Shown: positions 5,016 through 36,317 of the stretch, one piece after another
Numbering within the stretch: position 1 is the first letter of the stretch
How the letters are laid out: each line of letters begins with the position of its first letter
Source: Bacteroidaceae bacterium
GTDB taxonomy: Bacteria; Bacteroidota; Bacteroidia; Bacteroidales; Bacteroidaceae
Direction of reading: 5' to 3'
DNA length: 36,317 nt
Assembly (NCBI GenBank): GCA_017445925.1
Contig: JAFSRW010000100.1
Span: forward strand, 1 to 36,317
Made by a program: the position numbers and the translations under genes
Notes under the pieces: model-generated
Database searches by the model: none
What the model saw: only the letters and a program-made list of their open reading frames with translations
Told to the model about the DNA's origin: nothing

Positions 5016-5104
5016 TGAACATTGAGCATTGAACATTGAACATTGAACATTGTGCATTGAACATTAAGAATTAGCACTCCTCCCTCTCTCGGGGGGAGGT
5101 TGGG
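5013..5104. repeat. ATTGAAC heptad array followed by a palindromic element
   Basis: From 5013 to about 5064 a 7-bp unit (ATTGAAC, with variants ATTGAGC and ATTGTGC) repeats about seven times over the ung start codon. At 5067-5104 comes a GC-rich palindrome with a GGGAGG tail, one monomer of the family also seen inside the sufS, uxaA, kinase and permease genes. It separates ung from gpmI. Confidence 0.85.
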
Positions 5105-5114
5105 AGGGGGGCTA

Positions 5115-7456: not shown

Positions 7457-7461
7457 CTTAT

Positions 7462-7500
7462 TATCCTCCCTCCTTTGGGGAGGGTCGGGGTAGGCTTTTT
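7462..7500. repeat. Palindromic element monomer between sufS and rnhB
   Basis: A CCTCCCTCC/GGGGAGGG palindrome with a GGGGTAGG tail and a T-run fills most of the gap. It belongs to the same family as the in-gene copies. The T-run lies on the plus strand, so it does not look like a terminator for the minus-strand genes. Confidence 0.7.
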
Positions 7501-7501: not shown

Positions 7502-8767
7502 TTAGAACATTTGTTTAACTCGCTGAATGCCTGCCACCAAGGCGTCCACCTCTTCACGGGTGTTGTATAAGGCAAAACTGGCGCGGCAGGTTCCCTCTAT
7601 GCCCAACCTGCGCATCAAAGGTTCGGCACAATGATGGCCTGTACGGACAGCAATGCCCAATCTATCCAGCAACGTACCCATATCCAGATGGTGGATATAA
7701 CCCACCTGAAAACTGATTACAGCATCGTGAATATTCACGTCTGAAGGGCCATATATCTTCATGCCCTCAATCTCACCCATACGCTGCATGGCATACTGCG
7801 TAAGGTCACGCTCATGTGCCTCGATGGCATCAAGGCCTATATTGCTTACATAATCTAAGGCACGGGCCAAACCTGTGCTGGCCACATAATCGGGTGTTCC
7901 TGCCTCGAACTTAAAAGGCAGTTCATTAAAGGTTGTCCGCTCGAAGCTGACATTCTTTATCATCTCACCGCCACCCATGTACGGAGGTAGTTTCTCTAAC
8001 CATTTATCCTTACCATACAAAACGCCAATACCCGTAGGGCCGTAAATCTTATGACCGCTGAAAGCAAAGAAGTCGCAATCCAACTCCTGCACATCTACCT
8101 TCATGTGAGGTGTACTCTGCGCACCATCTATCAGCACGGGAACTCCATGCTCGTGGGCAATACGGGTGATTTCCTTCACAGGATTGATAGTTCCCAGCAC
8201 ATTGCTTATATGTGTCACACTAACGATACGCGTACGGTCGGAAAAGAGTTTCTTGTATTCGTCAATTCGAAGCTGACCGTCATCTGTAATAGGAATTACA
8301 CGTAGCTTAATGCCTTTACGCTGCTGTTGCAACTGCCAGGAGACGATGTTGCTGTGATGCTCCATCTCACTGACAATCACCTCATCCCCTTCCTTCATGA
8401 AAGCATCGGAGAAACACTGAGCCACCAAATTGATGCTTTCCGTTGTGCCGCGAGTAAAAACTATCTCGCTGGTGCTTCGGGCATTCAGGAACTTCCTTAC
8501 TGTTTCCCGGCTGCCCTCATGCAGTTCCGTGGCCTGCTGTGACAGGAAGTGAACACCCCTGTGTACATTGGCATTCACATTATAATATTCCTCCGTCATG
8601 GCCTCTACCACAACACGAGGCTTCTGCGTAGTAGCCGCATTATCCAAATAGACCAGCGGATACTTCTTATATATAATTTTTCCAAGAATTGGAAAATCTT
8701 CTCTCCAATTCTCCCCTCCATAGAGGGAGGGGACGGGGGTGGGTCCAACTACTTGCATAGCTTGCAT
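7502..8767 (-). CDS. sufS: Cysteine desulfurase of the SUF system
   Basis: This PLP enzyme takes sulfur from cysteine for Fe-S cluster assembly. The PLP lysine is in FAFSGHK (Lys240) and the persulfide cysteine in TGHHCAEPLM (Cys380); the C-terminal TCRASFALYNT pattern is typical of SufS (group II) rather than IscS. The first 20 residues (MQAMQVVGPTPVPSLYGGEN) are unlike family members, which begin close to the equivalent of REDFPIL; they are coded by a palindromic repeat at 8701-8746. The start overlaps the end of sufD by 19 nt. An internal ATG at 8758 is an alternative start. It is the last suf gene of the cluster. Confidence 0.95.
   Translation of the reverse strand: MQAMQVVGPTPVPSLYGGENWREDFPILGKIIYKKYPLVYLDNAATTQKPRVVVEAMTEEYYNVNANVHRGVHFLSQQATELHEGSRETVRKFLNARSTSEIVFTRGTTESINLVAQCFSDAFMKEGDEVIVSEMEHHSNIVSWQLQQQRKGIKLRVIPITDDGQLRIDEYKKLFSDRTRIVSVTHISNVLGTINPVKEITRIAHEHGVPVLIDGAQSTPHMKVDVQELDCDFFAFSGHKIYGPTGIGVLYGKDKWLEKLPPYMGGGEMIKNVSFERTTFNELPFKFEAGTPDYVASTGLARALDYVSNIGLDAIEAHERDLTQYAMQRMGEIEGMKIYGPSDVNIHDAVISFQVGYIHHLDMGTLLDRLGIAVRTGHHCAEPLMRRLGIEGTCRASFALYNTREEVDALVAGIQRVKQMF
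8701..8746. repeat. Palindromic element monomer forming the sufS N-terminus
   Basis: CTCCCCTCC, a short loop, GAGGGAGGGG and a GGGGGTGGG tail. It lies just inside the sufS reading frame and is translated (PTPVPSLYGG). Its hairpin closely matches the copies at 31524-31562 and 32061-32097. Confidence 0.85.
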
Positions 8768-10732: not shown

Positions 10733-10876
10733 CATTGAACATTGAACATTGAGCATAGAACATTGAGCATTGAACATTGAGCATTGAACATTGGTAACTC
10801 TCATTCTTCACTCTTCATTCTTCATTCTTCACTTTTCAATTTAACACTCCCCCTAGGGGGAGATGGAGGGGGCTTT
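10733..10876. repeat. Three repeat families stacked between sufC and sufB
   Basis: The gap consists of an ATTGAAC heptad array (10733-10792), an ATTCTTC heptad array (about 10797-10841) and a palindromic element (CCCCCTAGGGGG with a GGAGGGGG tail, 10845-10876). This puts about 145 bp of repeat inside an otherwise tight operon, in the leader of sufC, where the palindrome could affect message stability. Confidence 0.85.
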
Positions 10877-12584: not shown

Positions 12585-12592
12585 TATCTTTG
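12585..12592 (+). promoter_or_regulatory. -7 box ahead of the HEPN/MNT pair
   Basis: TATCTTTG followed by C matches the Bacteroidetes TAnnTTTG box, 30 bp before the HEPN start codon. A TTTG lies only 12 nt upstream (12569-12572), closer than the usual 19, so the -33 element is uncertain. The region is back to back with the sufB promoter array. Confidence 0.55.
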
Positions 12593-12621
12593 CAAACGTA
12601 AACCATATAAACGAAATAATT

Positions 12622-13035: not shown

Positions 13036-13367
13036 GCTTCACACCGCTCAGCGTACAGGGCATCCTGCCAAAGGAGTTTGCCCTAGAGTTAGTGCGTCGC
13101 TACAAGGAAGTCATTGCCCCTCGCTTTGACCCAGCGACAAAAGTGATGATGTTTGGCTCCTACGCTAAAGATTGTCCCAACGAATGGAGCGACATTGACG
13201 TTGCTGTTATCGTGCCCAAGATAGAGGAAGGTACATGGTGGAACACATCGTCAAGTCTTTGTCGAGACGTTGACAAAGTGAGCCTTTACATCGAACCCAT
13301 CCTCTTGGAAAGCGGTGAGGACTCTCCTATCTACCGTGAGGTAATGCGGACAGGCGTAGCAGTATAA
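12993..13367 (+). CDS. Minimal nucleotidyltransferase (MNT) partner of the HEPN protein
   Basis: The 124-residue protein has the polymerase-beta fold signature GSYAKDC...SDIDVAVIV (Gly55, Ser56, Asp67, Asp69), with a likely third acidic residue in the IEPILLE strand. In MNT/HEPN systems the nucleotidyltransferase acts as antitoxin, in studied cases by AMPylating the HEPN toxin. The 43-nt overlap with the HEPN gene indicates translational coupling. The start at 12993 is the only ATG before the catalytic strand, so the N-terminal 20 residues are somewhat uncertain. Confidence 0.85.
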   Translation: MDTRKVTGKVIDPIGFTPLSVQGILPKEFALELVRRYKEVIAPRFDPATKVMMFGSYAKDCPNEWSDIDVAVIVPKIEEGTWWNTSSSLCRDVDKVSLYIEPILLESGEDSPIYREVMRTGVAV

Positions 13368-24852: not shown

Positions 24853-26277
24853 ATGAAAATTATTCAATTTGGGGAAGGAAACTTCCTACGTGCCTTCGTT
24901 GAGTGGATAGCTCAACAAATGAATTACAGCGTAGCCATCGTTAAGCCCCGGCCTGGCAACACTTTGGATGCTTTGCGTGCACAAGGGTGCCGTTACCATG
25001 TAAACCTGCAAGGCTTACTGAACGGAAAGACCATAGATACAATGGAAGAAATCACCTGTGTCACCACAGCCGTAAACCCTTACGAAGACCACGAGGCCTT
25101 CCTTGCGCTGGCAGAAGATGCCGAGGCACGCTTCATTGTGTCCAATACCACCGAGGCCGGTATAACCTTCGACCCTGTCTGCCGGCTGAACGACACACCG
25201 CCCACCTCATACCCTGCCAAACTGACGCAGTTGCTTTACCATCGTTTTCGCACCTTCAACAGCGACCCTGCCAAGGGCTTTATCATCCTGCCCTGCGAAC
25301 TCGTTTTCGGCAATGGTCATCTCTTGGAGCAATGCGTTCATCAATATATTAACCTTTGGGCAACAGAGATAGGCAGTGATTTCGATGACTTTTCCCATTG
25401 GGTACAACAGTCATGCTACTTCTGCACCACCCTTGTGGATCGTATTGTGCCTGGATATCCCAAGAAGAATGCCGAGTCGCTGCAAGCCCGACTGCCTCAG
25501 CATGATCCTCTGCTGGTGCAAGCCGAGCCTTACCACCTTTGGGTCATTGAGGCGGCCAAGAACCTTTCCCTGGAGCAACTGGAGAAGGAGTTCCCTGCTG
25601 ATAAGGCCGGACTGCACGTTGTCCTGACCCATGACGAATCACCTTACCACGAGCGTAAGGTAACCTTGCTGAACGGGCCCCATACCGTTCTCTCGCCTGT
25701 TGCTTTCCTGGCTGGCTTGAATATCGTCCGCGATGCCTGTCAGCACGAGGTTATCGGACCCTTTGTCCGTCGTGTAATGTTCGACGAGTTGCTACCCACC
25801 CTTAACCTTCCCGAGGAAGAACTGCGCCGTTTTGGAAACGATGTTATGGAACGCTTCTGCAATCCCTTCGTCGATCATCAGCTTACCAGTATCATGCTCA
25901 ACAGCTTCCCCAAGTTCCAGACGCGCGACCTGCCCGGCCTCAAGACCTATCTCATGCGCAAGGGCACATTGCCCAAGGGCATCGTCTTGGGCTTGGCTGC
26001 CATCTGCGTTTATTACAAGGGCGGTCAGCGTGCCGACGGCACACCCATCCAGCCCAACGATGATCCACGCATCATGCAATTGCTCACCGACCTGTGGGCT
26101 ACGGGCGATGTACGCAAAGTGGCCGAAGGCGTCTTAGCTGCCAAGGACCTCATCTGGCACGAGCATGGCGACCTCAATACCATCCCGGGTCTCACCGACC
26201 TCCTCACCGAGAGCATCACCCGCATCCTGGAAAAGGGTATGATGGAAACGGTAAAAGGATTAGGGATTAGAGATTAG
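24853..26277 (+). CDS. uxaB: Tagaturonate reductase
   Basis: The 474-residue protein opens MKIIQFGEGNFLRAFVEW and has the family segments VDRIVPGYP, KVTLLNGPHTVLSPVAFLAG and RFCNPFVDHQLTSI. UxaB reduces D-tagaturonate to D-altronate with NADH, linking the upstream dehydrogenase to uxaA. Length is close to E. coli UxaB (483). The final residues (KGLGIRD) and the stop codon are coded by a GGATTAG heptad tract that continues into the gap, so the repeat has replaced the native C-terminal end. Confidence 0.95.
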   Translation: MKIIQFGEGNFLRAFVEWIAQQMNYSVAIVKPRPGNTLDALRAQGCRYHVNLQGLLNGKTIDTMEEITCVTTAVNPYEDHEAFLALAEDAEARFIVSNTTEAGITFDPVCRLNDTPPTSYPAKLTQLLYHRFRTFNSDPAKGFIILPCELVFGNGHLLEQCVHQYINLWATEIGSDFDDFSHWVQQSCYFCTTLVDRIVPGYPKKNAESLQARLPQHDPLLVQAEPYHLWVIEAAKNLSLEQLEKEFPADKAGLHVVLTHDESPYHERKVTLLNGPHTVLSPVAFLAGLNIVRDACQHEVIGPFVRRVMFDELLPTLNLPEEELRRFGNDVMERFCNPFVDHQLTSIMLNSFPKFQTRDLPGLKTYLMRKGTLPKGIVLGLAAICVYYKGGQRADGTPIQPNDDPRIMQLLTDLWATGDVRKVAEGVLAAKDLIWHEHGDLNTIPGLTDLLTESITRILEKGMMETVKGLGIRD

Positions 26278-26425
26278 GGATTAGAGGTTATCGTTCCCGT
26301 TGAAGTTAAGGAAGTTAAGGAAGTTAAAGAAGTTAAAGAAGTTAAAGGACGAATGTTCCCGTTATCGCCTCAGCGAGACTCTAATCTCTAATCTCTTAAA
26401 CTCTCTAAACTGACTCTAAACTTAA
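26257..26425. repeat. Repeat-filled gap between uxaB and uxaA
   Basis: GGATTAG heptads (26257-26288) supply the last codons and stop of uxaB. A run of about five GAAGTTAAG nonamers follows (about 26300-26347), then TCTAATC and CTCTAAA heptads (about 26380-26425) up to the uxaA start. No other feature is visible in the gap. Confidence 0.75.
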
Positions 26426-26430
26426 AACAA

Positions 26431-28005
26431 ATGAAAGATTTTCTCCAAATACACCCCGCTGATACCGTGGCGGTTGCCCTGCAAGAGTTGCCTGGCATCC
26501 CTGCCGGCCATAAGTTTGCCCTCCGCGACATCGCCCAGGGCGAGGATGTCATCAAGTACGGCTACCCCATCGGGCACGCCACTCGTCCCATCCGCAAAGG
26601 CGAGTTGGTAGACCACCACAACATCGCCACCAACCTAAGCGGAACAATAGATTATAAAAGCCTCACCCCTAACCCCTCTCCCGTGGGCGAGGGGAACTTT
26701 ATAGATGAGGGAAACAATTCTCCCCTCCCTCTCGGGGGAGGGGCTGGGGGAGAGGCTTTTTTTCTCGGCTTTGTGCGTCCCGGCGGCCAGGTAGGCATTC
26801 GCAACGACATCTGGGTCATCCCCACCGTTGGCTGCGTAAATCCCATCTGCCGCCAAATAGTTGAACAAGCCAAAGAACAACTCTCAATTCTCAACTCTCA
26901 ACTGACTCTAAACTCTAAACTCTCAACTCTCAACTATTTTCCCCATCCCTACGGTTGCTCTCAGCTGGGCGACGACCACGAGAATACCCGCAAGATCTTG
27001 CGCGATATGGTCCTGCACCCCAATGCAGGCGGCGTGTTGGTTGTTGGCTTAGGTTGCGAGAACAACCAGCCTAAGGAGTTTGAGAAGATGCTGGGCGACT
27101 ACGACCGCCAACGCATCCGCTTCATGGTTTGTCAGGAAGTTGAGGGCGACGAGGTTGAGACCGGCGTACGCATTGTCAAGGAGCTCTATGAGCAGGCACA
27201 GACCTACCAACGCGAGCCCGTACCTATCAGCAAACTACGCGTAGGACTTAAGTGTGGCGGCTCCGACGGATTCTCAGGCATTACCGCCAATCCCCTCTTA
27301 GGAGCCTTCACCGACTGGCTCTGCACAGAGCAAGGCGGCACAGCCATTCTTACCGAAGTGCCCGAGATGTTCGGTGCCGAGACCATCCTCATGCGTCGTA
27401 CCGTATCCGATGAAGTCCTGCAGCAGACCATCAGTCTCATCAATAACTTCAAGGAATATTTCCTCTCTCACGGACAGCCCGTAGGCGAGAACCCCTCGCC
27501 CGGCAATAAAGCCGGTGGTATCTCCACCCTCGAAGAGAAAGCCCTCGGTTGCACCCAAAAAGCCGGCACCGCCCCCGTAGTCGGCGTCCTCGCCTATGGC
27601 GATAGACTACCGCAGGCTCAAGGCGCAGCCCCAATTATCAATTGTCAATTGTCAATTGTCAATTCAGGCTTATTCCTCCTCTCCGCCCCTGGCAACGACC
27701 TTGTGGCAAGCACCGCTTTGGCGGCAGCCGGATGCCAGTTGGTACTCTTCACCACAGGTAGGGGAACACCCTTCTCCACCTTTGTGCCCACGCTAAAGGT
27801 CAGCACCAACAGCGATTTGGCCCGTCGCAAGCCCCAGTGGATAGACTTCGATGCCGGTGTCCTGCTGGATGGCACAACCATGCCCGAACTGCTCCAGCGC
27901 TTCATCGCCTACATCATAAACGTATGCTCCGGCAAGGAACAAACCACCGCCGAGGCCCACGGCAATGCCGAATTCGCCATCTTCAAAAACGGCGTAACAC
28001 TATAA
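26431..28005 (+). CDS. uxaA: Altronate dehydratase with in-frame repeat insertions
   Basis: The 524-residue protein has an N-terminal SAF domain (about 1-75) and a C-terminal dehydratase domain with the family segments YGCSQLGDDHENT, GLKCGGSDGFSGITANP, NPSPGNKAGGISTLEEK and LFTTGRGTPFSTF. It dehydrates D-altronate to 2-keto-3-deoxygluconate. E. coli UxaA has 495 residues. The excess is explained by insertions: a palindromic pair between the domains (26656-26760, about 35 codons), a CTCTCAA heptad tract (26881-26935) and a TCAATTG heptad tract (27633-27665). All are in frame and lie outside the recognisable motifs, so activity may survive. Confidence 0.95.
   Translation: MKDFLQIHPADTVAVALQELPGIPAGHKFALRDIAQGEDVIKYGYPIGHATRPIRKGELVDHHNIATNLSGTIDYKSLTPNPSPVGEGNFIDEGNNSPLPLGGGAGGEAFFLGFVRPGGQVGIRNDIWVIPTVGCVNPICRQIVEQAKEQLSILNSQLTLNSKLSTLNYFPHPYGCSQLGDDHENTRKILRDMVLHPNAGGVLVVGLGCENNQPKEFEKMLGDYDRQRIRFMVCQEVEGDEVETGVRIVKELYEQAQTYQREPVPISKLRVGLKCGGSDGFSGITANPLLGAFTDWLCTEQGGTAILTEVPEMFGAETILMRRTVSDEVLQQTISLINNFKEYFLSHGQPVGENPSPGNKAGGISTLEEKALGCTQKAGTAPVVGVLAYGDRLPQAQGAAPIINCQLSIVNSGLFLLSAPGNDLVASTALAAAGCQLVLFTTGRGTPFSTFVPTLKVSTNSDLARRKPQWIDFDAGVLLDGTTMPELLQRFIAYIINVCSGKEQTTAEAHGNAEFAIFKNGVTL
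26656..26760. repeat. Paired inverted palindromic element (REPIN-like) inside uxaA
   Basis: The 105-bp element has 9-bp perfect outer ends (AAAAGCCTC and GAGGCTTTT). It holds two head-to-head copies of a GC-rich palindromic monomer around a short AT-rich spacer, and reads through in frame. The same two-copy layout is found at 31335-31429 in the kinase gene. Confidence 0.85.
26881..26935. repeat. CTCTCAA heptad tract inside uxaA
   Basis: About seven units of CTCTCAA/CTCTAAA code for SILNSQLTLNSKLSTLN, just before the conserved PHPYGCSQLGDD segment. Confidence 0.8.
27633..27665. repeat. TCAATTG heptad tract inside uxaA
   Basis: Four units of AATTGTCA-like heptads code for APIINCQLSIVNSG, ahead of the conserved FLLSAPGNDL segment. 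The usual enzyme has only a short turn here. Confidence 0.8.
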
Positions 28006-28014
28006 GAGGCAAGA

Positions 28015-28048
28015 ACCTCTTACTAATAAGAAATCATAAAGTGGTAAA
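28015..28048 (+). repeat. 34-bp inverted repeat, left copy
   Basis: This 34-bp sequence (ACCTCTTACTAA ... GTGGTAAA) is found in reverse complement at 29019-29052 with one mismatch. It lies just after the uxaA stop. The two copies bracket the PIN toxin cassette. The first bases also form a small hairpin with the uxaA stop region (28003-28022). Confidence 0.85.
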
Positions 28049-28056
28049 TAAAATAG

Positions 28057-28090
28057 AAAAAAAGGCACCCGATTTGCGGGTGCCTTTTTT
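28057..28090. terminator. Bidirectional intrinsic terminator
   Basis: A 7-bp stem (GGCACCC/GGGTGCC, 28064-28070 and 28078-28084) is flanked by an A-run on the left and a T-run on the right. It can therefore end transcripts of uxaA on the plus strand and of the toxin cassette on the minus strand. It lies inside the bracketed segment. Confidence 0.9.
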
Positions 28091-28180
28091 CTATGAATTA
28101 CTTATGACTTCCCAATGGCCTCCTTTGTCAGGTCCGACACGCTTGATGATGCCGTCCGCTTGTAAAGTGACTCTGGGACA
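28091..28180 (-). pseudogene. C-terminal remnant of an AlbA_2/Schlafen-like ATP-binding protein
   Basis: The minus strand codes for the 29 residues CPRVTLQADG...KRVGPDKGGHWEVI..., then a stop at 28091-28093. The phrase IKRVG-DKGG-WEV is the usual end of AlbA_2-domain ATP-binding proteins (winged-helix tail), but an in-frame stop lies directly upstream and no body of the gene remains. It is best read as debris of a gene lost when the toxin cassette arrived or rearranged. Confidence 0.45.
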
Positions 28181-28212
28181 TTATCTTTCGCTCGCTGTGG
28201 CCATATCTAATA

Positions 28213-28635
28213 TCACTTTTGCTCCATCATTTCCAGAAACTCGTCCAACTCATAGACGGGAATCTCGGAGGCAGAGAAGTCTTTCTTGTTTCGGGTCACA
28301 ATGCAGTCCGCTTCAACCGTTTGGGCAGAACAGTACTGAAGGGCATCCTCGAAGTCGGTAAAGCCGGAAGCGAGGGCGCTTTTCACCACCGACTCATCGA
28401 CGGTGGTGGGTGTACACATCTTGCAGAGCAGGGCAATACTGTCGAAGATGTCCTGAGTGCTCAGCTTGCGACTTTCCATGATGTAACTGGCCGTACCCAG
28501 CGAAAGAGAGGAACAGAACAATTCTATCTGTCCCAAATCACCCATACTGAAGATGCACAACACCTTAGGGAACCAAGGATAGCGTTCGCACAGCAAATCG
28601 ATAACGATGTTAGCATCTACGAATACTCGTTTCAT
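28213..28635 (-). CDS. PIN-domain ribonuclease, VapC-like toxin
   Basis: The 140-residue protein opens MKRVFVDANIVIDLLCER and keeps the PIN acidic residues: Asp7, Asp94 and Asp97 (GFTDFEDALQ) and a late Asp in TRNKKDF. PIN toxins of type II systems cut RNA. The start overlaps the stop of the upstream antitoxin-like gene by 4 bp (ATGA). The pair is the only intact cargo between the 34-bp inverted repeats. The ribonuclease fold is clear; toxicity is inferred from the pairing. Confidence 0.9.
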   Translation of the reverse strand: MKRVFVDANIVIDLLCERYPWFPKVLCIFSMGDLGQIELFCSSLSLGTASYIMESRKLSTQDIFDSIALLCKMCTPTTVDESVVKSALASGFTDFEDALQYCSAQTVEADCIVTRNKKDFSASEIPVYELDEFLEMMEQK

Positions 28636-28907
28636 TTGTACTTCTCTGTTAAGTATTCCTGGCGCAATTTATCAACTTCCTCGTCGGTGGCATACCAAGG
28701 GTTACCGCGCTGGAACTGCAGCACACGCGGCGAAAGGCCTGCTGTGACGGCATCGGCACCCTCGGACTGATGACTACGCACAGTTCGTCTGGCGGGACGG
28801 GTGCGGTGACGCAGCCTCTTCACATAGCGGGATACGCTCTCAAGCATCTCGGCACTCATCTGGTCGAGTTCGGCTGCTATGGATGTTCTTAGTTCTATTG
28901 CTGTCAT
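28632..28907 (-). CDS. Antitoxin-like partner of the PIN protein
   Basis: The 91-residue protein begins MTAIELRTSIAAELDQMS, a helix typical of small antitoxin-type proteins of Bacteroidales, has a basic middle (RYVKRLRHRTRPARRTVRSH) and ends PWYATDEEVDKLRQEYLTEKYK, a plausible toxin-binding tail. It is coupled to the PIN gene by a 4-bp overlap and preceded by a promoter box. I do not assign a DNA-binding fold by name. Confidence 0.75.
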   Translation of the reverse strand: MTAIELRTSIAAELDQMSAEMLESVSRYVKRLRHRTRPARRTVRSHQSEGADAVTAGLSPRVLQFQRGNPWYATDEEVDKLRQEYLTEKYK

Positions 28908-28935
28908 AATAAACCCAATTTACTAATTTACGCTG

Positions 28936-28943
28936 CAAATATA
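28936..28943 (-). promoter_or_regulatory. -7 box of the toxin-antitoxin pair
   Basis: On the minus strand TATATTTG lies about 29 bp ahead of the antitoxin start. A TTTG is 12 nt further upstream, the same short spacing as at 12569-12592 and 14237-14260, so the -33 element is unsure. Confidence 0.5.
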
Positions 28944-29018
28944 AACATTTTCCTCCAAATTTGTTCATGAAAAGCAGAAAATCACCTTATAAATTGTGCA
29001 AAAGAATGTTTTCTTTAC

Positions 29019-29052
29019 TTTACCACTTTATGATTTCTTTTTAGTAAGAGGT
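29019..29052 (-). repeat. 34-bp inverted repeat, right copy
   Basis: Reverse complement of 28015-28048 with one mismatch. It ends 8 bp before the first regulator binding-site candidate (29061), so the segment border touches the control region of the response regulator gene. Confidence 0.85.
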
Positions 29053-29060
29053 GAAAAGAC

Positions 29061-29094
29061 GTGCGATTTAGCACGATAATGTACGATTACGCAC
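29061..29094 (+). promoter_or_regulatory. Pair of 14-bp sites upstream of the response regulator
   Basis: GTGCGATTTAGCAC (29061-29074) and GTACGATTACGCAC (29081-29094) are near-palindromic and start 20 bp apart. The same type of pair with the same spacing occurs at 31893-31926 ahead of the sigma-54 promoter of the permease. They are likely binding sites of the regulator encoded at 29203, implying self-control. Confidence 0.7.
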
Positions 29095-29141
29095 AAAAAG
29101 CGGACGAATACTGGGTTCGGACGCTTTTTCTGAAGTGAAAG

Positions 29142-29174
29142 TTTGGGGGATGTGCTTCTTTTGTCTTATATTTG
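29142..29174 (+). promoter_or_regulatory. Housekeeping-type promoter of the two-component genes
   Basis: TTTG (29142-29145), a 21-nt spacer and TATATTTG (29167-29174) fit the Bacteroidetes pattern and lie 28 bp ahead of the regulator ATG at 29203. No -24/-12 element is seen here. Confidence 0.6.
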
Positions 29175-29202
29175 CTTCCAGAAAAGTGAAAACTGTTTGA
29201 TA

Positions 29203-30570
29203 ATGGAAGAGAAAAAGAAGGGAAAAGTACTTGTCATTGACGATAACGAGGACATCCTCTTTGCGCTGAACCTATTGCTGAAACCATTGGTGGAGGACAT
29301 CCGTGTAACCAAACAGCCCGAGCAGATAGACCGATTCTATGACCTGTTGCATCCCGATGTGGTGTTGCTGGATATGAATTTCACGCGTGATGCCATTAGT
29401 GGTGAGGAGGGTTTCGAGTGGTTGGAGCATATCCTTCACCGCGATGCGCAGGCGGTGGTCATCCTTATGACAGCCTACGCCGATGCTGACAAGGCTGTAC
29501 GTGCCTTGAAGAGTGGCGCCACCGATTTCATCACCAAGCCTTGGGACAATTCCAAACTATTGGCCACACTCTTTGCGGGCATAGAACTGGGTCAGGAGCG
29601 GCACAAGAACCGCGTCCTGGAGCAGCGCATGGAGGTGGCAGCATCACCTTTTGGGGCTACGGCTGCGCCCACGATTATCGGCGAGAGTCCCGCTATGCGG
29701 CATGTACTCGAAACGGTAGCGCAGGTGGCACCGACAGATGCCAATGTGCTGATTCTGGGCGAGAACGGAACGGGAAAGGATGTTATGGCGCGCCAACTGT
29801 GTGCCCTGTCCGGTAGGGCGGCAAAGCCCTTTGTCAGCATCGACCTTGGCAGCGTGCCCGAACAACTCTTCGAGGGCGAGCTGTTCGGCTACGAGAAGGG
29901 TGCGTTCACTGATGCCCGCAAGGCGAAGGCAGGTCGCATGGAAACTGCCAGCGGAGGCACACTCTTCCTTGACGAGATAGGCAACCTTCCCCTACCCTTG
30001 CAGGCAAAACTCTTAGCCGCCCTGGAGCGTCGCGAGATTTCGCGCCTCGGCAGCACGCAGGTTACGCCCATCGATGTGCGACTCATCTGTGCCACGAATG
30101 CCGACATCCATACCGAGGTGGCCGAGGGTCGTTTCCGCGAGGATTTGCTCTACCGAATCAATACCATCGAGATTACCATGCCGCCCTTGCGCGAACGTGG
30201 CGAGGACATCATCTTGCTGGCTGAGCATTTCCTTAAGACTTACGCGCGTAAGTATAATAAGGTAGTGAAGACGCTGAACCGCGATGCACGCCAACGATTG
30301 CTCCGCCATTCATGGCCGGGCAATGTGCGCGAATTGATGCACGCCGTGGAGCGTGCCGTGCTGCTTGCCAAAGGGTCCGACCTCTGTGCGCAGGACTTTC
30401 TGCTGAAGGAGTCGGTACGACGTGCCAACCAGACGTCGACGCTGAATCTGGAACGTTTGGAGCAGGAAGCCATCGAGCGTGCCATGATCATTGCCGGGGG
30501 TAACGTCACGAAGGCTGCGGAACTCCTCGGCATCACGCGATTTGCCCTTTATAGAAAGCTTAACAAATGA
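29203..30570 (+). CDS. NtrC-type sigma-54 response regulator
   Basis: The 455-residue protein has a receiver domain (phospho-Asp57 in LLDMNF, Thr90, Lys112), a sigma-54 AAA+ domain with Walker A GENGTGKD (186-193) and the contact loop GAFTDA (233-238, where most family members have GAFTGA), and a Fis-type helix-turn-helix at the end (GNVTKAAELLGITRFALYRKL). It should activate -24/-12 promoters after phosphorylation by the kinase next door, with which it overlaps by 4 bp. The start at 29203 (MEEKKKGKVLVIDDN) is chosen over a TTG at 29143 that overlaps the promoter. Confidence 0.95.
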   Translation: MEEKKKGKVLVIDDNEDILFALNLLLKPLVEDIRVTKQPEQIDRFYDLLHPDVVLLDMNFTRDAISGEEGFEWLEHILHRDAQAVVILMTAYADADKAVRALKSGATDFITKPWDNSKLLATLFAGIELGQERHKNRVLEQRMEVAASPFGATAAPTIIGESPAMRHVLETVAQVAPTDANVLILGENGTGKDVMARQLCALSGRAAKPFVSIDLGSVPEQLFEGELFGYEKGAFTDARKAKAGRMETASGGTLFLDEIGNLPLPLQAKLLAALERREISRLGSTQVTPIDVRLICATNADIHTEVAEGRFREDLLYRINTIEITMPPLRERGEDIILLAEHFLKTYARKYNKVVKTLNRDARQRLLRHSWPGNVRELMHAVERAVLLAKGSDLCAQDFLLKESVRRANQTSTLNLERLEQEAIERAMIIAGGNVTKAAELLGITRFALYRKLNK

Positions 30571-31760
30571 AAACGTACCTGTTTTATATCATCGGCATCT
30601 TGGGCCTCATTATATGCCTTGCCCTCAGCATCCAAGCTCATCTGCTATGGCCGTCTATCGCGCTGGGTGTGATGCTGATTTGGCTGTTTGTTTCGCTTTA
30701 CGGCCGCATCAGCCGCCTGCGATACGCTTACCATGAAACGGAGAAGGAGAATCAGAAGTTGCATGTGAAGCTTGCAGAGGCAGAGCGACAGTTGCAGTAC
30801 TTGCGACAGTTGACAGAGAATGTGGATACGGCTCTCTTTGTCTGTGACACAGAAGGACGTATCGACTGGATGAACCATGCGGCAGAGAAGACCCTCTCCC
30901 CAACCCTCCCCCTCTATGGGGAGGGAGTACTTCCCGAAAATATTTTGAGGGCCATTGATGAAGGTACTGAGGTGGTGGACGGCTGCGCGCTTTCCACCGT
31001 CCTGCTGCGAATCGACGGGAAGCGACGCTTTGTGGTAGCGCTAAAGGATGTATCTATGCTGATGCAGCGGCAGGAGATGGAGGCCTGGCAGCAACTCATC
31101 CGCGTGCTGACCCACGAAATCATGAACTCCCTCACACCCATCATCTCCATCAGCGAGACATTGGCAGGTTCCTTCCCCCAAGGGGGAGGACAGGAGGGGG
31201 CTGCCGTCATCAACCGTCGTTGTCACTCTCTCCTCGACTTTGTGGAGAGCTACCGACAACTGACGCGCATCAAGACACCCGAGAAAACGACCTTCCCCGT
31301 CTCCGAATTATTTGAACACCTAAAAGCCCTCTTCAGCCTCACCCCCAGCCCCTCTCCGGGGAGAGGGGAGAAAAATACCCCGCAATTAACGTTTTCCCCT
31401 CTCCCCGGAGAGGGGTTAGAGGTGAGGCTGTTGGCCGACCGCGCTCAAATAGAGCAAGTCCTCATCAACCTCATCAAGAACGCATACGAAAGCGGCGCCA
31501 CGCAGGTAGAAATCTCTGCAGAATCTCTCCCCTCCATAGAGGGAGGGGCCGGGAGAGGGTCTGCCATCCGCATCCGCGACAACGGATGTGGTATGCCAGC
31601 CGACGTACTGGAGCACGCTTTTATCCCCTTCTACACCACCAAGACCACTGGTACTGGCATCGGTCTTAGTCTCTGTCGTCAGATTATCCTCAAACATGGC
31701 GGCACCATCCATATCGAAAGCGAGGAGAAAAAGGGTACTACGATAGAAATAAAGATATGA
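30567..31760 (+). CDS. Membrane-bound sensor histidine kinase with four repeat insertions
   Basis: The 397-residue protein has two N-terminal membrane helices (about 4-24 and 28-46), a coiled segment, a PAS-like domain (about 82-165), the H-box LTHEIMNSLTP (His183), N-box LINLIKNAYESG (Asn305), G1 box RDNGCGMP (Asp338) and the lid GTGIGLSL. It phosphorylates the adjacent regulator. Four palindromic repeats are translated in frame: about 110-122 (PAS), 201-213 (after the H-box helix), 257-289 (before the N-box) and 318-332 (between N- and G1-boxes). All catalytic boxes are intact. The last insertion lies within the ATP-binding core, so function should be tested. Confidence 0.93.
   Translation: MKTYLFYIIGILGLIICLALSIQAHLLWPSIALGVMLIWLFVSLYGRISRLRYAYHETEKENQKLHVKLAEAERQLQYLRQLTENVDTALFVCDTEGRIDWMNHAAEKTLSPTLPLYGEGVLPENILRAIDEGTEVVDGCALSTVLLRIDGKRRFVVALKDVSMLMQRQEMEAWQQLIRVLTHEIMNSLTPIISISETLAGSFPQGGGQEGAAVINRRCHSLLDFVESYRQLTRIKTPEKTTFPVSELFEHLKALFSLTPSPSPGRGEKNTPQLTFSPLPGEGLEVRLLADRAQIEQVLINLIKNAYESGATQVEISAESLPSIEGGAGRGSAIRIRDNGCGMPADVLEHAFIPFYTTKTTGTGIGLSLCRQIILKHGGTIHIESEEKKGTTIEIKI
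30891..30929. repeat. Palindromic element in the kinase PAS region
   Basis: CCCTCCCCC/CTATGGGGAGGG monomer, in the opposite orientation to most others. It codes for TLSPTLPLYGEGV. Confidence 0.75.
31173..31202. repeat. Palindromic element after the kinase H-box helix
   Basis: TTCCCCCAAGGGGGAGG with a GGAGGGGG tail, coding for SFPQGGGQEGA. It resembles the copy between sufC and sufB (10845-10876). Confidence 0.75.
31335..31429. repeat. Paired inverted palindromic element (REPIN-like) in the kinase gene
   Basis: The outer ends AGCCTCACC and GGTGAGGCT are inverted. Each half is a CCCCTCTCC/GGAGAGGGG palindrome, and a 25-bp AT-richer spacer separates them. It codes for SLTPSPSPGRGEK and SPLPGEGLEVRL. 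Same architecture as 26656-26760. Confidence 0.9.
31524..31562. repeat. Palindromic element in the kinase ATPase core
   Basis: CTCCCCTCC/GAGGGAGGGG with a GGGAGAGGG tail, coding for SLPSIEGGAGRGS between the N- and G1-boxes. Nearly the same as 32061-32097, which codes for LPSLEGGVGGGS. Confidence 0.85.
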
Positions 31761-31766
31761 TCTTCG

Positions 31767-31803
31767 ATATAAAACTATTTTATCCTGCATATAAAACTAT
31801 TTT
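31767..31803. repeat. 15-bp direct repeat downstream of the kinase
   Basis: ATATAAAACTATTTT occurs at 31767-31781 and 31789-31803, a 22-bp step. It is followed by an AT-rich 8-bp hairpin (about 31799-31817). It may be part of the permease control region or a weak terminator for the kinase. Confidence 0.6.
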
Positions 31804-31892
31804 CAAGCTTTGAAAATAATTTTAAACAAGGGAAAAAGATGTTTTTTCCCGACTTAAAAAGAATAATGCACAACGTATTGATGACTTTTCCT

Positions 31893-31926
31893 GTGCGCTT
31901 TCGCACAATCATGAGCGATAGCGCAC
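31893..31926 (+). promoter_or_regulatory. Pair of 14-bp enhancer-type sites upstream of the sigma-54 promoter
   Basis: GTGCGCTTTCGCAC (31893-31906) and GAGCGATAGCGCAC (31913-31926) match the pair at 29061-29094 in sequence type and in the exact 20-bp step. They end 57 bp ahead of the -24 element, a normal place for NtrC-type activator sites. Confidence 0.75.
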
Positions 31927-31983
31927 GTCGAAGCTAAAACGGAGGTTTTTGTATATCGCTATAAATCAGCGACTTAGCATTTT

Positions 31984-31999
31984 TGGCACGGTATTTGCA
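31984..31999 (+). promoter_or_regulatory. Sigma-54 (-24/-12) promoter
   Basis: TGGCACGGTATTTGCA matches the consensus TGGCACG-N4-TTGCA at every defined position. Transcription would start near 32010, about 18 nt ahead of the permease ATG at 32028. Confidence 0.9.
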
Positions 32000-32027
32000 T
32001 GATAACTTGTAGAAAAAAACTGAAAAA

Positions 32028-34457
32028 ATGAATAACAACAAGAAAATGTCACATTGTTTTCTCCCCTCCTTAGAGGGAGGGGTCGGGGGAGGGTCTCCCT
32101 TCCGTATCATCAGCCGAATGAAGGGCTACACACTCCTTTCCATCCTCGGCCTTATCATCTCCCTTAGCGGCACCGTTATCATCAGCCGTTATTTGTATCA
32201 GGAATGGACTGTGGACCATTGGATGCCGGAACTGGACCGCACCTACGTATGCTGCGTACAATATCAGAACTCCAACGAATGGTTTCCGATAAAGACCTAC
32301 GATCCCAACCACCAAGAGCACTTCGTCTCGCCCGTGCTGAGCCAAAGCGACGTGGAGTGCTGGACGAATGTGCAACTGCGCTCGATGTTTCCCCTCAAAC
32401 CCGAGCAGGGCGAAGTGTTTTACCCCCAAGCCATCAGCGTGGATTCCACGTTCACGCAGGTTTATCCGCTGAAAGCCTTGGAGGGAACCTTAGTACTACG
32501 GGCAAAGGGTCAGTGCATCCTGAGCGAAGAACTTGCCGAACGGCTGTTCCCTGGCGAAAGCGCCGTGGGAAAGACCATCACGGTGGAAGACGACGAGGTG
32601 AATACCGTGATGGGCGTCTTCTGCCAACCTGCCACAAAGTCTACCATCCGCTTCGACATCGCCAACTTCTACGACGAGGACAGATATGAGCAGAACAGTC
32701 GCGGCATCGGTCTCATCCGCTTGCACGAAGGAACCGATATGCAGGCATACAACGAACGGCAGCCCGAACAGCGGTTGACTGTATTTTCCGACCGCCCCGT
32801 CCACTACGGGCTACAGCCTTATACGCAAATGCTGCAAAAATGCTGTGGCAGCTATTGGACAGAACTTGGCTGTTTAATCCCCGTGGCATCTTCCAGCCAT
32901 CTGTGGATGCTCCTTTTTGTGGCTGTGCTGTTACTGTTCGTGGGGTTGTTTAACTTCGTGAACCTCTTTGCCGTGATGCGCTCGCAACGTAGGCATGAGT
33001 TGGAGGTGCGTCGCATCTTCGGCGCCTCACGCTGGAACATCTTCTGTCAGCTCTATGCCGAGACCTTCCTGCTTGCTTTCCTCACCATGATTGGAGTCTG
33101 GACAGTGGTGGAACTGGCTGAGCCCTTGCTTGCTACCTATTATAATATTGAGATTATGGGGCAATGGAGGTTCGACGTAACCTTGACCGCAGGGATTGTC
33201 TTCGGCTTGCCGCTAATAACAGGCAGCCCCTCTCCTGAACCCTCTCGTAAAGGAGGGGGATTCCTCTTCATCCAATTCTTCATCTCTCTCGCTCTGCTGA
33301 ACGTCAGCCTCTACTTCATGCGCCAATTGCACGTAATGATGACCACCGAGCCCGGCTTCAGAACAGAAAGACTGCTCAGCGCTTGCATCTATCCCCCCAG
33401 CAACCGCGGCAGTTTTTCAGAAGAAGAGTGGGAAGCTATGATAGCAAATCTCGCCAAGCAAACCGAGGTGGTGAAGCAGCGCCTGCAGGCGTGCCCCTAT
33501 ATCAAGGGCATTACAATTGATAATGGATTCATCAACGGTAACATGACCATGAACCTCGCCGATGGCAGCAACGTAGACATAATGTATATCGAGGGATTAG
33601 AGGCACAGATGTATGGCCTACAACTGGTAGAGGGTGTACTGCCCGGTGACAGCCTCTCGATGGAAGACTACACCTGCGTGGCCAATGAGTCAGCCATCCG
33701 CGCGCTCGGCATTAAAGACCGCAAGACCGACCTTGTGCAATTTGAAAGGCGCTTCTGGTATGATGGTCGCAAGGACTGCAGCGGCAACCCACCCTTCCGC
33801 ATCATTGGCGTCGTCCGCGACTTCACCCCCGGTCGGCAGTCCGAGCCCGTGCGACCAATATTACTGATGTTTGAGAACTGGATGACGAGGGACGGCGTCT
33901 ACGACGCCCGCCAGATGCAAGGGCGCAACTACCTAATCGATGTAGCAGAAGGTCACGAGGAAGACATCATCCGTGAATTGAAGGCACTGGAGAAGGAACT
34001 CTATGGCACCACAGACCTGAAATATCACTGGATAGAAGACCAGCGCAAGGCACTCTATAAAGATGATCAGCGCATCGCCCGTATCTTCGTGACGTTCTCA
34101 CTTTTGGCGATTGCCGTCACCTGCCTCGGCGTACTGGGTTTGATGATGTTCGATGTACGTAGGCGTTACCGTGAGATTGCCCTCCGTAAGGTCAATGGTG
34201 CCACGTTCCTAGACATAGCCCTGCTGCTCTCGAGCCGCTACCTTATTATATTTGGTACCGCTGCCTTCACTTCGCTGCCCGTCAGCCTACTCGTTATCCA
34301 CCGCATCATGGCCAGCTACACCATCCGCACCAACTTCGCCTGGTGGATTCCCCTCGTAAGCCTCTTCATTGTCTTCCTGCTCTGCGCCCTCACCCTCTGG
34401 CAGCAAGTATGGAAGGCAACAAGAATAAAACCGTATAAAGTATTAAAGGAAAACTAA
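32028..34457 (+). CDS. FtsX/MacB-type ABC permease, first copy
   Basis: The 809-residue protein has the layout of Bacteroidetes double permeases: an N-terminal helix (GYTLLSILGLIISLSGTVII), a MacB-type periplasmic domain, an FtsX triple-helix block (from about 285) with the phrase VRRIFGASRWNIFCQLYAE, a second helix and periplasmic domain, and a final FtsX block (IALRKVNGATFLDIALLL). It likely exports or moves peptides or lipoproteins with an ATPase not in this window. Residues about 8-22 are a translated palindromic repeat absent from the next paralog; another copy lies near residue 400-411. Controlled by the sigma-54 promoter. Confidence 0.9.
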   Translation: MNNNKKMSHCFLPSLEGGVGGGSPFRIISRMKGYTLLSILGLIISLSGTVIISRYLYQEWTVDHWMPELDRTYVCCVQYQNSNEWFPIKTYDPNHQEHFVSPVLSQSDVECWTNVQLRSMFPLKPEQGEVFYPQAISVDSTFTQVYPLKALEGTLVLRAKGQCILSEELAERLFPGESAVGKTITVEDDEVNTVMGVFCQPATKSTIRFDIANFYDEDRYEQNSRGIGLIRLHEGTDMQAYNERQPEQRLTVFSDRPVHYGLQPYTQMLQKCCGSYWTELGCLIPVASSSHLWMLLFVAVLLLFVGLFNFVNLFAVMRSQRRHELEVRRIFGASRWNIFCQLYAETFLLAFLTMIGVWTVVELAEPLLATYYNIEIMGQWRFDVTLTAGIVFGLPLITGSPSPEPSRKGGGFLFIQFFISLALLNVSLYFMRQLHVMMTTEPGFRTERLLSACIYPPSNRGSFSEEEWEAMIANLAKQTEVVKQRLQACPYIKGITIDNGFINGNMTMNLADGSNVDIMYIEGLEAQMYGLQLVEGVLPGDSLSMEDYTCVANESAIRALGIKDRKTDLVQFERRFWYDGRKDCSGNPPFRIIGVVRDFTPGRQSEPVRPILLMFENWMTRDGVYDARQMQGRNYLIDVAEGHEEDIIRELKALEKELYGTTDLKYHWIEDQRKALYKDDQRIARIFVTFSLLAIAVTCLGVLGLMMFDVRRRYREIALRKVNGATFLDIALLLSSRYLIIFGTAAFTSLPVSLLVIHRIMASYTIRTNFAWWIPLVSLFIVFLLCALTLWQQVWKATRIKPYKVLKEN
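32061..32097. repeat. Palindromic element at the N-terminus of the first permease
   Basis: CTCCCCTCC/GAGGGAGGGG with a GGGGGAGGG tail, in frame, coding for LPSLEGGVGGGS. The second permease begins MKQAFRIISRMKG without it. Confidence 0.9.
33225..33260. repeat. Degenerate palindromic element in the first permease
   Basis: CCCCTCTCC and GGAGGGGG arms around CTGAACCCTC, coding for SPSPEPSRKGGG between two membrane segments. The paralog has a different copy at the equivalent point (35671-35717). Confidence 0.75.
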
Positions 34458-34493
34458 AGCCTCACCCCCGACCCCTCTCCGAGGAGAGGGGAG
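34458..34493. repeat. Palindromic element between the two permease genes
   Basis: GCCTCACCCCC tail followed by a CCCCTCTCC/GGAGAGGGG hairpin, starting one base after the stop codon of the first permease. It fills most of the 58-bp gap. Confidence 0.85.
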
Positions 34494-34515
34494 TCAACTT
34501 GTCAACTAAAACAAC

Positions 34516-36317
34516 ATGAAACAAGCATTTCGAATCATCAGCCGCATGAAGGGCTACACCGCCCTCTCCCTGCTGGGTCTCATCATTTCCCTCAGCGGCA
34601 CGGTTATTATCAGCCGCTACCTCTATCAGGAATGGACCGTGGACCATTGGATGCCGGACCACGACAGGACTTACATCTTGTGCCAACGCTATGTCAATGG
34701 CATTTTGGGAGATGAGCCAACGCCTGGTTTGGCTTGGAATCCCAACAAAACAGAGGGCTTCGTGTCGCCTACTTTGGGGCAGAGCGACGTGGAGGCTTTC
34801 TCGGATGTTCATCTGCTGAAGAATGGCTCCTACATCATATTGGATAATGACGAGACCATAACCGCCCCCACTATCAGCGTTGACAGCAGTTTCGTTGATG
34901 TCTTTCCGTTGCAAGCTTTGGAGGGCACGCTGGTGCTGCGTACAGAAGGGCAGGCCATCGTGAGCGACGACTTCGCCCGTCGCCACTTCCCGGGCGAGAG
35001 TGCGGTAGGTAAGACCATGAAGATGGGCGACGAGAACATATTGCATACCATCGTGGGCGTGTTCCGTCGGCCATCGGGCAAGAGCACCGTCCACTTCGAT
35101 GTCGCTAACTATGCACGCAGGGACTGGTGGGTTGGCAATGCCCTTAACTTTACGATGATAAAGCTGGCGAAGGGCGCGAGCATGGAGGCATATAACGAGC
35201 GGCAGCCCAGGAATTCATGGGGAGGCCAGAATCCAGAGTTCCATTTCTTGCTTGTGCCCTATACGGGAAACTTGAGAAGGCTGATTGAGAGTTATGGACA
35301 GGAATTCCGAACCATTCCTTCGCTGAGTCCGTGTAGCAGTCTGCAGTACCTGTGGATGCTATTCGGTGTGGCAGTTCTGCTCTTCCTCGTCGGCTTCTTC
35401 AACTTCCTGAACTTGTATGCTGTGATGCGCAGCCACCGTCAGCACGAGTTGCAGGTGCGTCGCATCTTCGGTGCCTCACGTTGGAACATCTTCTGCCAAC
35501 TCTATGCCGAGACGTTCCTGCTCGCTTTGCTCACGATGATAGGCGTATGGACCGTCGTGGAGCTTATGGAGCCGCTGCTCGCTACCTATTATAATATAGA
35601 GGTCTTGCCGCAAAGGACGTTCGATGTGGGGCTGACTGTAGCGATAGTCTTTGGCTTGCCCTTTATATCCAGCTTCACCCCTCACCCCTCTCCTCGGGGA
35701 GGGGTTGGGGTGAGGCTCGAGGGGCTTGGGGTAGGCTTCCAGTTCTTCATCTCCCTGACCCTCATTACCGTAAGCATCTACATGATGCGTCAGTTGCACC
35801 TGATAATGGAAGGCGACCCAGGCTACAGGACGGAGGGCATCCTCCACATCGTCCCCAAGCCCAGAGAAGACTACAACCGCATCAGGAAGGATGACAACGG
35901 GAATACATACATCGTCGATAACAGCAGCGGAGAAAAGGCTATGGCTGTCTTGAAGAAGTTGAGGGAATGTCCCTACATCCAAAGCGTCATCGAGGACCCC
36001 GACATGATAAGTGCCGGTGAACTGATGGAAATAGAGGGGCAGAAACTGGCGTGCAAGGAAATGTGCCATAATACGATGGAGATGTTCGGACTGGAATTGC
36101 TGGAAGGAAGAGAATTAAACGATACCTTGGACAGCTACTCGTACAATTGTCTGCTCAATGAAACAGCTGTTCGACGCTTGGGACTGAAGGACTGGCGAAG
36201 CGCAAAGGTGCAGCTACCGGAACGATGGTGGACGTCAGCCAATGAGGATTGCTCAGAGAATCCGCCCTACAACGTGGTAGGCATCGTGAAGGACTTCCAT
36301 CCCGGTCGCCTCTCAGA
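34516..36317 (+). CDS. FtsX/MacB-type ABC permease, second copy (partial, C-terminus outside window)
   Basis: The frame is open from ATG 34516 to the window end (600 codons). It is a close paralog of the preceding gene: both share ISRMKGYT, LGLIISLSGTVIISRYLYQE and VRRIFGASRWNIFCQLYAE, while the periplasmic domains differ much more. The domain order is the same; the last FtsX block lies beyond the window. A palindromic repeat is translated near residues 388-403 (FTPHPSPRGGVGVRLEG), at the loop where the first copy also has one. It has no promoter of its own visible in the short gap, so it is probably read from the sigma-54 promoter. Confidence 0.9.
   Translation, partial: MKQAFRIISRMKGYTALSLLGLIISLSGTVIISRYLYQEWTVDHWMPDHDRTYILCQRYVNGILGDEPTPGLAWNPNKTEGFVSPTLGQSDVEAFSDVHLLKNGSYIILDNDETITAPTISVDSSFVDVFPLQALEGTLVLRTEGQAIVSDDFARRHFPGESAVGKTMKMGDENILHTIVGVFRRPSGKSTVHFDVANYARRDWWVGNALNFTMIKLAKGASMEAYNERQPRNSWGGQNPEFHFLLVPYTGNLRRLIESYGQEFRTIPSLSPCSSLQYLWMLFGVAVLLFLVGFFNFLNLYAVMRSHRQHELQVRRIFGASRWNIFCQLYAETFLLALLTMIGVWTVVELMEPLLATYYNIEVLPQRTFDVGLTVAIVFGLPFISSFTPHPSPRGGVGVRLEGLGVGFQFFISLTLITVSIYMMRQLHLIMEGDPGYRTEGILHIVPKPREDYNRIRKDDNGNTYIVDNSSGEKAMAVLKKLRECPYIQSVIEDPDMISAGELMEIEGQKLACKEMCHNTMEMFGLELLEGRELNDTLDSYSYNCLLNETAVRRLGLKDWRSAKVQLPERWWTSANEDCSENPPYNVVGIVKDFHPGRLS
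35671..35717. repeat. Symmetric palindromic element in the second permease
   Basis: Outer arms AGCTTCACCCC and GGGGTGAGGCT enclose CCCCTCTCC/GGGGAGGGG, one compact dyad of 47 bp, translated in frame. Confidence 0.85.

Follow-up and report, generated by a model that had tools for sequence, protein, structure and literature searches.

The 36,317-nucleotide stretch examined here (contig JAFSRW010000100.1; hereafter the window) comes from a rumen-type Bacteroidales bacterium and carries many copies of a GC-rich palindrome, several of them in frame inside genes such as uxaA, a sensor histidine kinase and two permeases. These palindromes are considered together with a small gene of the DUF559 family (PF04480), found between inverted copies of the palindrome in this and other genomes, as parts of a candidate mobile element. 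Alignment of sixteen monomer readings, all turned to one orientation, gave 15 sites, because the readings at 35671 and 35679 are a single palindrome read in both directions. In each monomer a hairpin, e.g. CCCCTCTCC-loop-GGAGAGGGG, comes after a tail that reads AGCCTCACCCC(NNN) or AGACCCTCCCCC. A covariance model built solely from the window copies (R1) recovered 14 of the 15 sites at E<=0.01, a recovery expected by construction, and 10 of these 14 are in frame within open reading frames (ORFs). The stem pattern searched on both strands gave 12 matches in the window compared with 0 in 200 first-order Markov sequences, and no Rfam family was detected in the window at its gathering score. A preceding sequence-only reading of the window had reported at least 13 copies of the repeat, head-to-head doublets, and in-frame copies in uxaA, the kinase and the permeases. 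The 15 aligned sites agree with the first point, the doublets 31334-31430 and 26656-26760 are true inverted pairs (arms of 39 nt, 90% complementary, and of 40 nt, 83% complementary, respectively), and same-genus ortholog alignment confirms the in-frame copies. The permease copy that it placed at 32061 does lie in the ORF, but within the first 25 codons, and its in-gene sufS copy was not upheld: being located between the sufD stop and the conserved SufS start, this copy is N-terminal or intergenic. Positions are given in Table 1.

Table 1. Palindrome copies and their host genes in the window.
Feature	Position	Strand	Evidence
Palindrome monomer, intergenic	5073..5113	-	R1 33.0 bits
Palindrome monomer, intergenic, beside ORF 6800-7456	7459..7498	-	R1 31.5 bits
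Palindrome monomer, sufD-sufS junction	8707..8746	-	R1 40.6 bits; five-species alignment
Weak palindrome monomer, intergenic	10844..10875	-	Aligned; missed by R1 at E<=0.01
Left monomer of uxaA doublet, in frame (SLTPNPSPVGEGNF)	26659..26698	+	Inverted-pair test, R1, frame reading
Right monomer of uxaA doublet (NSPLPLGGGAGGEA)	26718..26757	-	Inverted-pair test, R1, frame reading
Monomer, in frame in histidine kinase	30890..30929	+	R1 30.1 bits; ortholog alignment
Degenerate monomer, in frame in kinase	31168..31203	-	R1 23.9 bits
Left monomer of kinase doublet (SLTPSPSPGRGEKN)	31335..31374	+	Inverted-pair test, R1, frame reading
Right monomer of kinase doublet (TFSPLPGEGLEVRL)	31390..31429	-	Inverted-pair test, R1, frame reading
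Monomer, in frame in kinase (ESLPSIEGGAGRGS)	31523..31562	-	R1 40.8 bits
Monomer near permease 1 N-terminus (LPSLEGGVGGGS)	32057..32096	-	R1 45.6 bits
Monomer, in frame in permease 1	33225..33264	+	R1 33.2 bits; other inserts at same linker in relatives
Monomer between the two permease genes	34458..34497	+	R1 43.7 bits
Collapsed doublet, in frame in permease 2	35671..35718	.	R1; comparison with G075
Host gene uxaA (name from the sequence-only reading)	26431..28005	+	ORF; ortholog alignment
Sensor histidine kinase (named by eye), host gene; insertions at four sites, one with a pair	30567..31760	+	ORF; orthologs
MacB-like permease 1 (named by eye), host gene	32028..34457	+	ORF; orthologs
Host gene permease 2, runs off the window end	34516..36317	+	ORF; orthologs

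Enrichment of the palindrome throughout the genome was found with both searches: the strict stem pattern occurs at 48 places (reversed control 0) and R1 gave at least 85 matches at E<=0.001, with 150 of 929 candidates scored. For the analysis of reading frames, 118 copies were collected with R1 at E<=0.01 from about 187 kb fetched around the matches plus the window. Many copies are intragenic and their phase is not random: 55 of the 118 lie inside stop-to-stop frames of at least 200 codons, and these read as sense-0 (SLTPNPSPVGEG-type) in 27 cases, as anti-2 (SPLPxGGGxGGEA-type) in 15 and in the other four frames together in 13, a distribution that departs from even use of the frames open in each copy (chi-square p=4e-6). 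Intragenic status was judged by ORF length, except for 20 host ORFs scanned with Pfam, 18 of which contain Pfam domains, including those of CarA (carbamoyl-phosphate synthase small chain), GltB (glutamate synthase), LeuRS, MetRS and QueA (queuosine enzyme). A palindrome designed to be open in all frames was considered and rejected, the copies having 4.46 open frames and their shuffled versions 4.46 (genomic 40-mers 3.9). Taken together, the palindromes appear to have landed in frame inside many protein genes of this bacterium. How far the family can expand is marked by the related genome G138, with 245 stem matches.

Insert sites differ among relatives. Kinase and permease orthologs of the same genus can be aligned through the inserts, the linkers being the same and the insert sequences different, and the kinase orthologs of G025 and G033 have no inserts. 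Among close relatives (G444 and G075, with 86 and 89% DNA identity in the kinase), the uxaA doublet is common to this genome and G075, and G444 has an unrelated hexamer repeat in its place; the permease 2 doublet is full in G075 and 39 bp shorter in this genome; and relatives hold different inserts at the permease 1 linker at 33225. At the sufD-sufS junction, a five-species alignment displays head-to-head doublets in G075, G444 and G138, an expanded array in G454 and a single copy here. By eye, the in-frame SufS ATG seems to lie inside the palindrome at L355 (G444) and L356 (G075), where the repeat may supply the start codon. In the kinase of G013 (L076:5922-7655), the palindrome insert is expanded to a tandem array of eight SRQPAKVTFSPSPTGEG-type units.

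The uxaA gene carries other coding repeats as well. Heptamers (AACTCTC)n and (AATTGTC)n occur at window positions 26870-26945, 27631-27666 and 26262-26430, giving the in-frame uxaA peptides SILNSQLTLNSK and INCQLSIVNS, and relatives carry hexamer arrays in the same linkers. These arrays are a second class of coding repeat, independent of the palindromes. Their presence in the same uxaA linkers would fit a growth of low-complexity linkers without any mobile element; as an explanation of the palindromes this is nevertheless hardly credible, since the palindrome sequence is common to unrelated genes and intergenic sites, hairpin and tail covary, doublets are inverted, and the genome-wide counts (48 and at least 85) with a reversed control of 0 contradict it.

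Judged by sequence, the palindromes belong to the BoxC/PIT/intrastrand-triplex (TM) family. Compared with the E. coli TM_ECO motifs (14 distinct sequences from 23 listed in PMC4666352), 105 of the 118 copies outscored all 590 shuffled controls. TM number 9 of the published set was found exactly, next to the E. coli DUF559 gene ycjD, in strain HB101. Scored against the parallel complement of the purine arm (115 of the 118 copies), the tails have a mean of 4.9, compared with 2.6 for shuffled tails (p=1e-41) and 4.4 for swapped tails, the margin over the tails of other copies being small (p=8e-4). According to PMC4666352, BoxC/PIT/TM motifs occur in E. coli and more than 260 genomes, with five inverted pairs in MG1655, and triplex formation in vivo is without support. 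R1 also detected the motif in Deinococcus, Synechocystis and Sphingomonas records. The sequence-only reading had regarded the same peptides in distant genera as an argument against insertion; the motif does occur there, as a widespread repeat and not as conserved protein segments, since close relatives differ in the inserts that they carry at one linker. To our knowledge, BoxC has been known in E. coli since the 1990s and no route of its spreading is known.

The sequence-only reading had likened the palindromes to REPINs, doublets of repetitive extragenic palindromes (REPs), and had proposed a REP-associated tyrosine (Y1) transposase (RAYT) as their mover. The likeness holds for doublets, in-frame insertion, dispersal and linker differences, and fails for the Y1 partner. 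True REPINs moved by a Y1 transposase would account for the coexistence of inverted doublets and singlets, as PMC3116915 describes for REPINs, and Y1_Tnp matches were obtained in 51 of 121 genus genomes (mostly incomplete metagenome-assembled genomes), 25 of them below 1e-8, any Y1 match being weakly enriched in palindrome-rich genomes (p=0.03). Against this, no Y1_Tnp match was obtained in this genome (83.7% complete), genomes with strong Y1 matches are no richer in palindromes (p=0.98, 121 genus genomes), and none of the studied palindromes is present at eight strong Y1 loci of the genus. All eight loci (L081-L088) have inverted flanks of their own with other sequence, several of them GTAG-tagged (e.g. 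GTAGCCAGCC..GGCTGG), a tag that RAYTs would be expected to have. The unpaired GTAG/CGTC tag is absent from the consensus AGCCCCnCCCCCnACCCC... of the present palindromes, a few copies in G077 happening to read GTAGCC; CGTC repeats are reported from phyla including Bacteroidetes in PMC3733652. The palindromes are not RAYT-type REPINs: the RAYT mover was rejected for them on the lack of a Y1 match in this genome and the differing Y1 flanks, and a Y1-driven origin is most improbable. Since the Y1 genes of the genus have their own, different inverted palindromes, RAYT-type REPs seem to coexist with BoxC-type repeats. Weak partial Y1_Tnp matches (positions about 36-89), many in ORFs of about 400 residues (e.g. 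G138:C11:10606-10770), possibly represent another HUH family.

A different gene was found between the palindromes. In two relatives, inverted palindromes 443 bp apart enclose a single ORF, DUF559. PF04480 was detected in 84 of the 121 genus genomes, with three copies in this genome, and in 170 of 296 genomes of a phylum sample; the search matched 2 of 14 control genomes and nothing in the E. coli control. As the ycjD region is present in most complete E. coli genomes, the family counts may be low. Flanks were analysed in samples that all favour the best-scoring loci: 30 genus loci (one per genome, of 233 matches); 30 phylum loci chosen likewise; 80 named loci (best 80 of at least 575 confirmed, some sharing a genome, 2 not long enough for the flank test and 9 lacking a distal control), which range from rumen Prevotellaceae/Bacteroidaceae to Flavobacterium, Ignavibacterium and a Nitrotoga-labelled bin; and 16 plasmid/phage loci chosen of 40 matches, with two E. 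coli matches added later.

Within 250 bp of the 30 genus loci, R1 palindromes were found on both sides in 23 (22 inverted), on one side in 4 and on neither in 3. In this genome, one DUF559 gene lies between inverted palindromes, 3' of a gyrB/parE-like end and 5' of a coaD-like start (names by eye). An inverted-repeat score of at least 12 was reached at 28 of 30 genus loci (distal windows 0/28), 16 of 30 phylum loci (distal 0/27), 55 of 78 named loci (none of 69 distal windows at these loci) and, in plasmid and phage records, 9 of 16 loci (no distal windows), and at none of 17 control kinase loci. R1 palindromes also stand on both sides of DUF559 in the Synechocystis, Deinococcus and Sphingomonas records, and a Sphingobium record shows this layout as well, the arrangement extending across several phyla. 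Across the 121 genus genomes, DUF559 copies correlate with palindrome count (rho=0.53, p=4e-10; 0.42 partial for genome size), and among the 30 palindrome-rich ones 27 have DUF559 and 4 a strong Y1. No paper linking DUF559, YcjD or COG2852 to palindromes was found by title or abstract start among open-licence papers. The DUF559 of Pseudanabaena (L209) is flanked by inverted copies of another palindrome, CCCCCTAAATCCCCCAATTCTGGGGGAC (score 61.5), indicating that different lineages have different palindrome types. DUF559 adjoins DUF1156 or BREX PglX genes on plasmids of Synechocystis and Picosynechococcus (L199, L200, L206).

By profile match and conserved acidic residues, DUF559 belongs to the PD-(D/E)XK, Vsr-like nuclease family, the superfamily to which YcjD was assigned earlier in PMC1189080. 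The residues D, E, D and H are invariant in 13/13 and 29/29 aligned sequences, the larger alignment (A4) being made from 35 chosen sequences after leaving out L262 (stop codon) and five others. The DUF559 profile matches a solved endonuclease-like protein (3hrl, E 2.5e-29) and a mobile-intron protein (3r3p, E 1e-6). A role in defence was considered and not retained, PADLOC giving only weak matches, the best to DpdF and one to a homing-endonuclease model.

The nuclease gene, together with both palindromes, is itself found in frame inside enzymes. At 40 of the 80 named loci, DUF559 forms part of a longer frame that has at least 120 codons ahead of it and at least 60 behind it. Pfam detected DUF559 in 10 of 10 tested hosts, with host domains on both sides in 9. 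These hosts are MetH (also identified by TIGR02082), LeuRS, MetRS, UvrA (two), a ValRS-like and an IleRS-like protein (both names by eye; the IleRS-like host has a Pfam domain only on its N-side), an ABC-F-type ATPase, a glycoside hydrolase 31 and an epimerase-type protein. The junctions of the cassettes consist, by eye, of palindrome-like peptides, and in all ten hosts the Pfam matches at E<=1e-6 included DUF559 and the overlapping PF18741 and no intein family. At L189 (G013) and L186 (G071), a guanylate-kinase-like ORF (by eye) has DUF559 joined in frame to its start, and ORFs of other Bacteroidota that resemble, by eye, type I restriction R subunits and HsdM (L222, L224, L228, L237, L236) contain DUF559 in frame.

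MetH allowed filled and empty sites to be compared. Its genus was taken as Flavobacterium, one member corresponding to the F. cucumis protein at 100%, and 55 of 61 genomes had a MetH match. Of these 55, 7 are filled at site 1, 46 are empty there and 2 are without call; at the DNA level the insert measures 420-471 nt in the 7 filled genomes, with AGCCCCCC...GGGGGGCT-type ends, and 15-18 nt in the 13 empty ones read. The distribution is patchy, because the empty G469 is 98% and 92% identical in the two protein halves and the filled G478 only 83%. At site 2, the cassette is present in G485, which is empty at site 1, and in L302 and L306, and short linkers are present in L361, L369 and others. G471 has a doublet without nuclease at site 2. 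The inner 3' end of this doublet (ATTATCGACAAAC..) corresponds to the 3' end of the nuclease gene of G485, which makes it a cassette cut down by internal deletion. The inserted MetH nuclease evolves under constraint (dN 0.044, dS 0.55, in the one pair with dS below 1). The occupancy of one MetH linker in 7 genomes and of another in 3 loci, together with the profile match to 3r3p and the PADLOC homing-endonuclease model (E 1.8e-5), would also suit a homing endonuclease whose copying is limited to the same allele, the solo palindromes having spread otherwise. Cassettes are found in many unrelated genes and at intergenic sites, and their number tracks that of the palindromes, which makes this alternative improbable.

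The most serious competing explanation is that DUF559 is a passenger or a repair nuclease. In that case replication slippage, template switching or repair at triplex-forming DNA would spread the palindromes, and the DUF559 genes would either land between them or be retained for processing them, in the manner of Vsr-like repair. Consistent with it are the Vsr-like nature of DUF559, the link of Caulobacter VsrA to DNA damage in PMC12907096, the instability of BoxC sites in E. coli in PMC4666352, and the palindromes of genomes without a DUF559 match. It does not readily explain that inverted flanks recur at DUF559 of many families in several phyla when distal flanks do not, nor that DUF559 and both palindromes are present or absent as a unit in MetH, and it is accordingly considered unlikely.

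A mobile DUF559 cassette, from which the solo palindromes of BoxC type derive, is the probable interpretation of these observations. The monomer would consist of a C-rich tail and a hairpin, the tail being able to pair with the purine arm, and the full element would be a cassette of about 0.4-0.5 kb made of a palindrome, one DUF559 gene and an inverted palindrome. The nuclease would act on the palindromes or on the target, so that the cassette is moved or copied to new sites; DUF559 would thus catalyse the movement with the palindromes as substrate. Loss of the gene would leave head-to-head doublets, which in general would come from cassettes, and further loss would leave single palindromes. 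Most landings in genes would be lost, the survivors being in frame and in tolerant linkers, and the insertions kept would mostly adopt the two readings that give Pro/Gly/Ser-rich loops.

Several observations weigh against this interpretation. Its support for mobility lies in filled and empty sites, movement itself not having been observed, and the MetH pattern could also come from a common old insertion followed by losses. No target-site duplication could be called at MetH (by eye, no systematic search), the empty linkers being too variable to fix the joint, and one deletion derivative only was traced. Inverted flanks as such are not specific to DUF559, since all 8 Y1 loci also reach a score of at least 12, and a clear inverted repeat is lacking at 23 of 78 named DUF559 loci, at 14 of 30 from the phylum sample and at 7 of 16 from plasmids and phages. 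The correlation with palindrome count takes no account of phylogeny; 37 of the 121 genus genomes, including 3 of the 30 palindrome-rich ones, gave no DUF559 match, and DUF559 is present in 7 of 18 palindrome-free ones. The copies are open in no more frames than their composition predicts. In E. coli, BoxC copies are found only downstream of ycjD, and sapF-fabI was rejected as a clean empty site for this gene, three ycjD-less strains having other genes there.

Somewhat better than even, in our estimation, is the broader proposal of a new class of element, found in Bacteroidota, Cyanobacteria, Deinococcota and Proteobacteria, in which two triplex-forming palindromes enclose a lone DUF559 nuclease gene. 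Such an element would seed non-autonomous BoxC-type repeats and insert in frame, with its nuclease and without splicing, into essential enzymes (MetH, LeuRS), E. coli YcjD being its domesticated or relict member. We know of no catalogue that contains such a class. If correct, active nuclease domains ride inside housekeeping proteins, the odd peptides LTPNPSPxGEG and SPLPxGGGxGGEA of bacterial proteins are accounted for, and a natural system turns DNA insertions into protein loops, including nuclease-domain inserts of about 140 residues in essential enzymes. With DUF559, a family of unknown function, lying between BoxC-type repeats in several phyla, the question of their spreading becomes directly testable in E. 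coli K-12.

Elsewhere in the window, two small overlapping ORFs at 12520-13367 resemble by eye a HEPN-nucleotidyltransferase pair, and 28213-28635 resembles a PIN-domain protein.

Compared with known systems, the palindromes share with the E. coli TM_ECO motifs their sequence, a triplex-capable tail, inverted pairs and multiple copies. They differ in placement, the copies of MG1655 being always intergenic according to PMC4666352 whereas 55 of 118 are inside long ORFs here, and in the nuclease partner proposed, since that 2015 report states that transposase or integrase remnants were never found near BoxC/TM copies. In-frame palindromes within protein genes also recall the Rickettsia palindromic elements and intragenic REPs, a likeness of placement. 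The sequence-only reading had named Rickettsia as a precedent, but such palindromes are not limited to it, intragenic REPs being reported from several species in PMC3733652; no Bacteroidales case was found in the open-licence papers searched. With REPIN/RAYT systems there are in common inverted doublets, singlet remnants and an enzyme gene between repeats, but the enzyme here is a PD-(D/E)XK DUF559 protein instead of a Y1 transposase, and it is often multi-copy and itself an insert, unlike RAYTs, described as single-copy in PMC3116915. Finally, homing endonucleases and inteins (3r3p) resemble the cassettes in having a homologous nuclease, an in-frame position inside a host enzyme, and both filled and empty sites, whereas the present inserts match no intein family and have palindromes as their ends.

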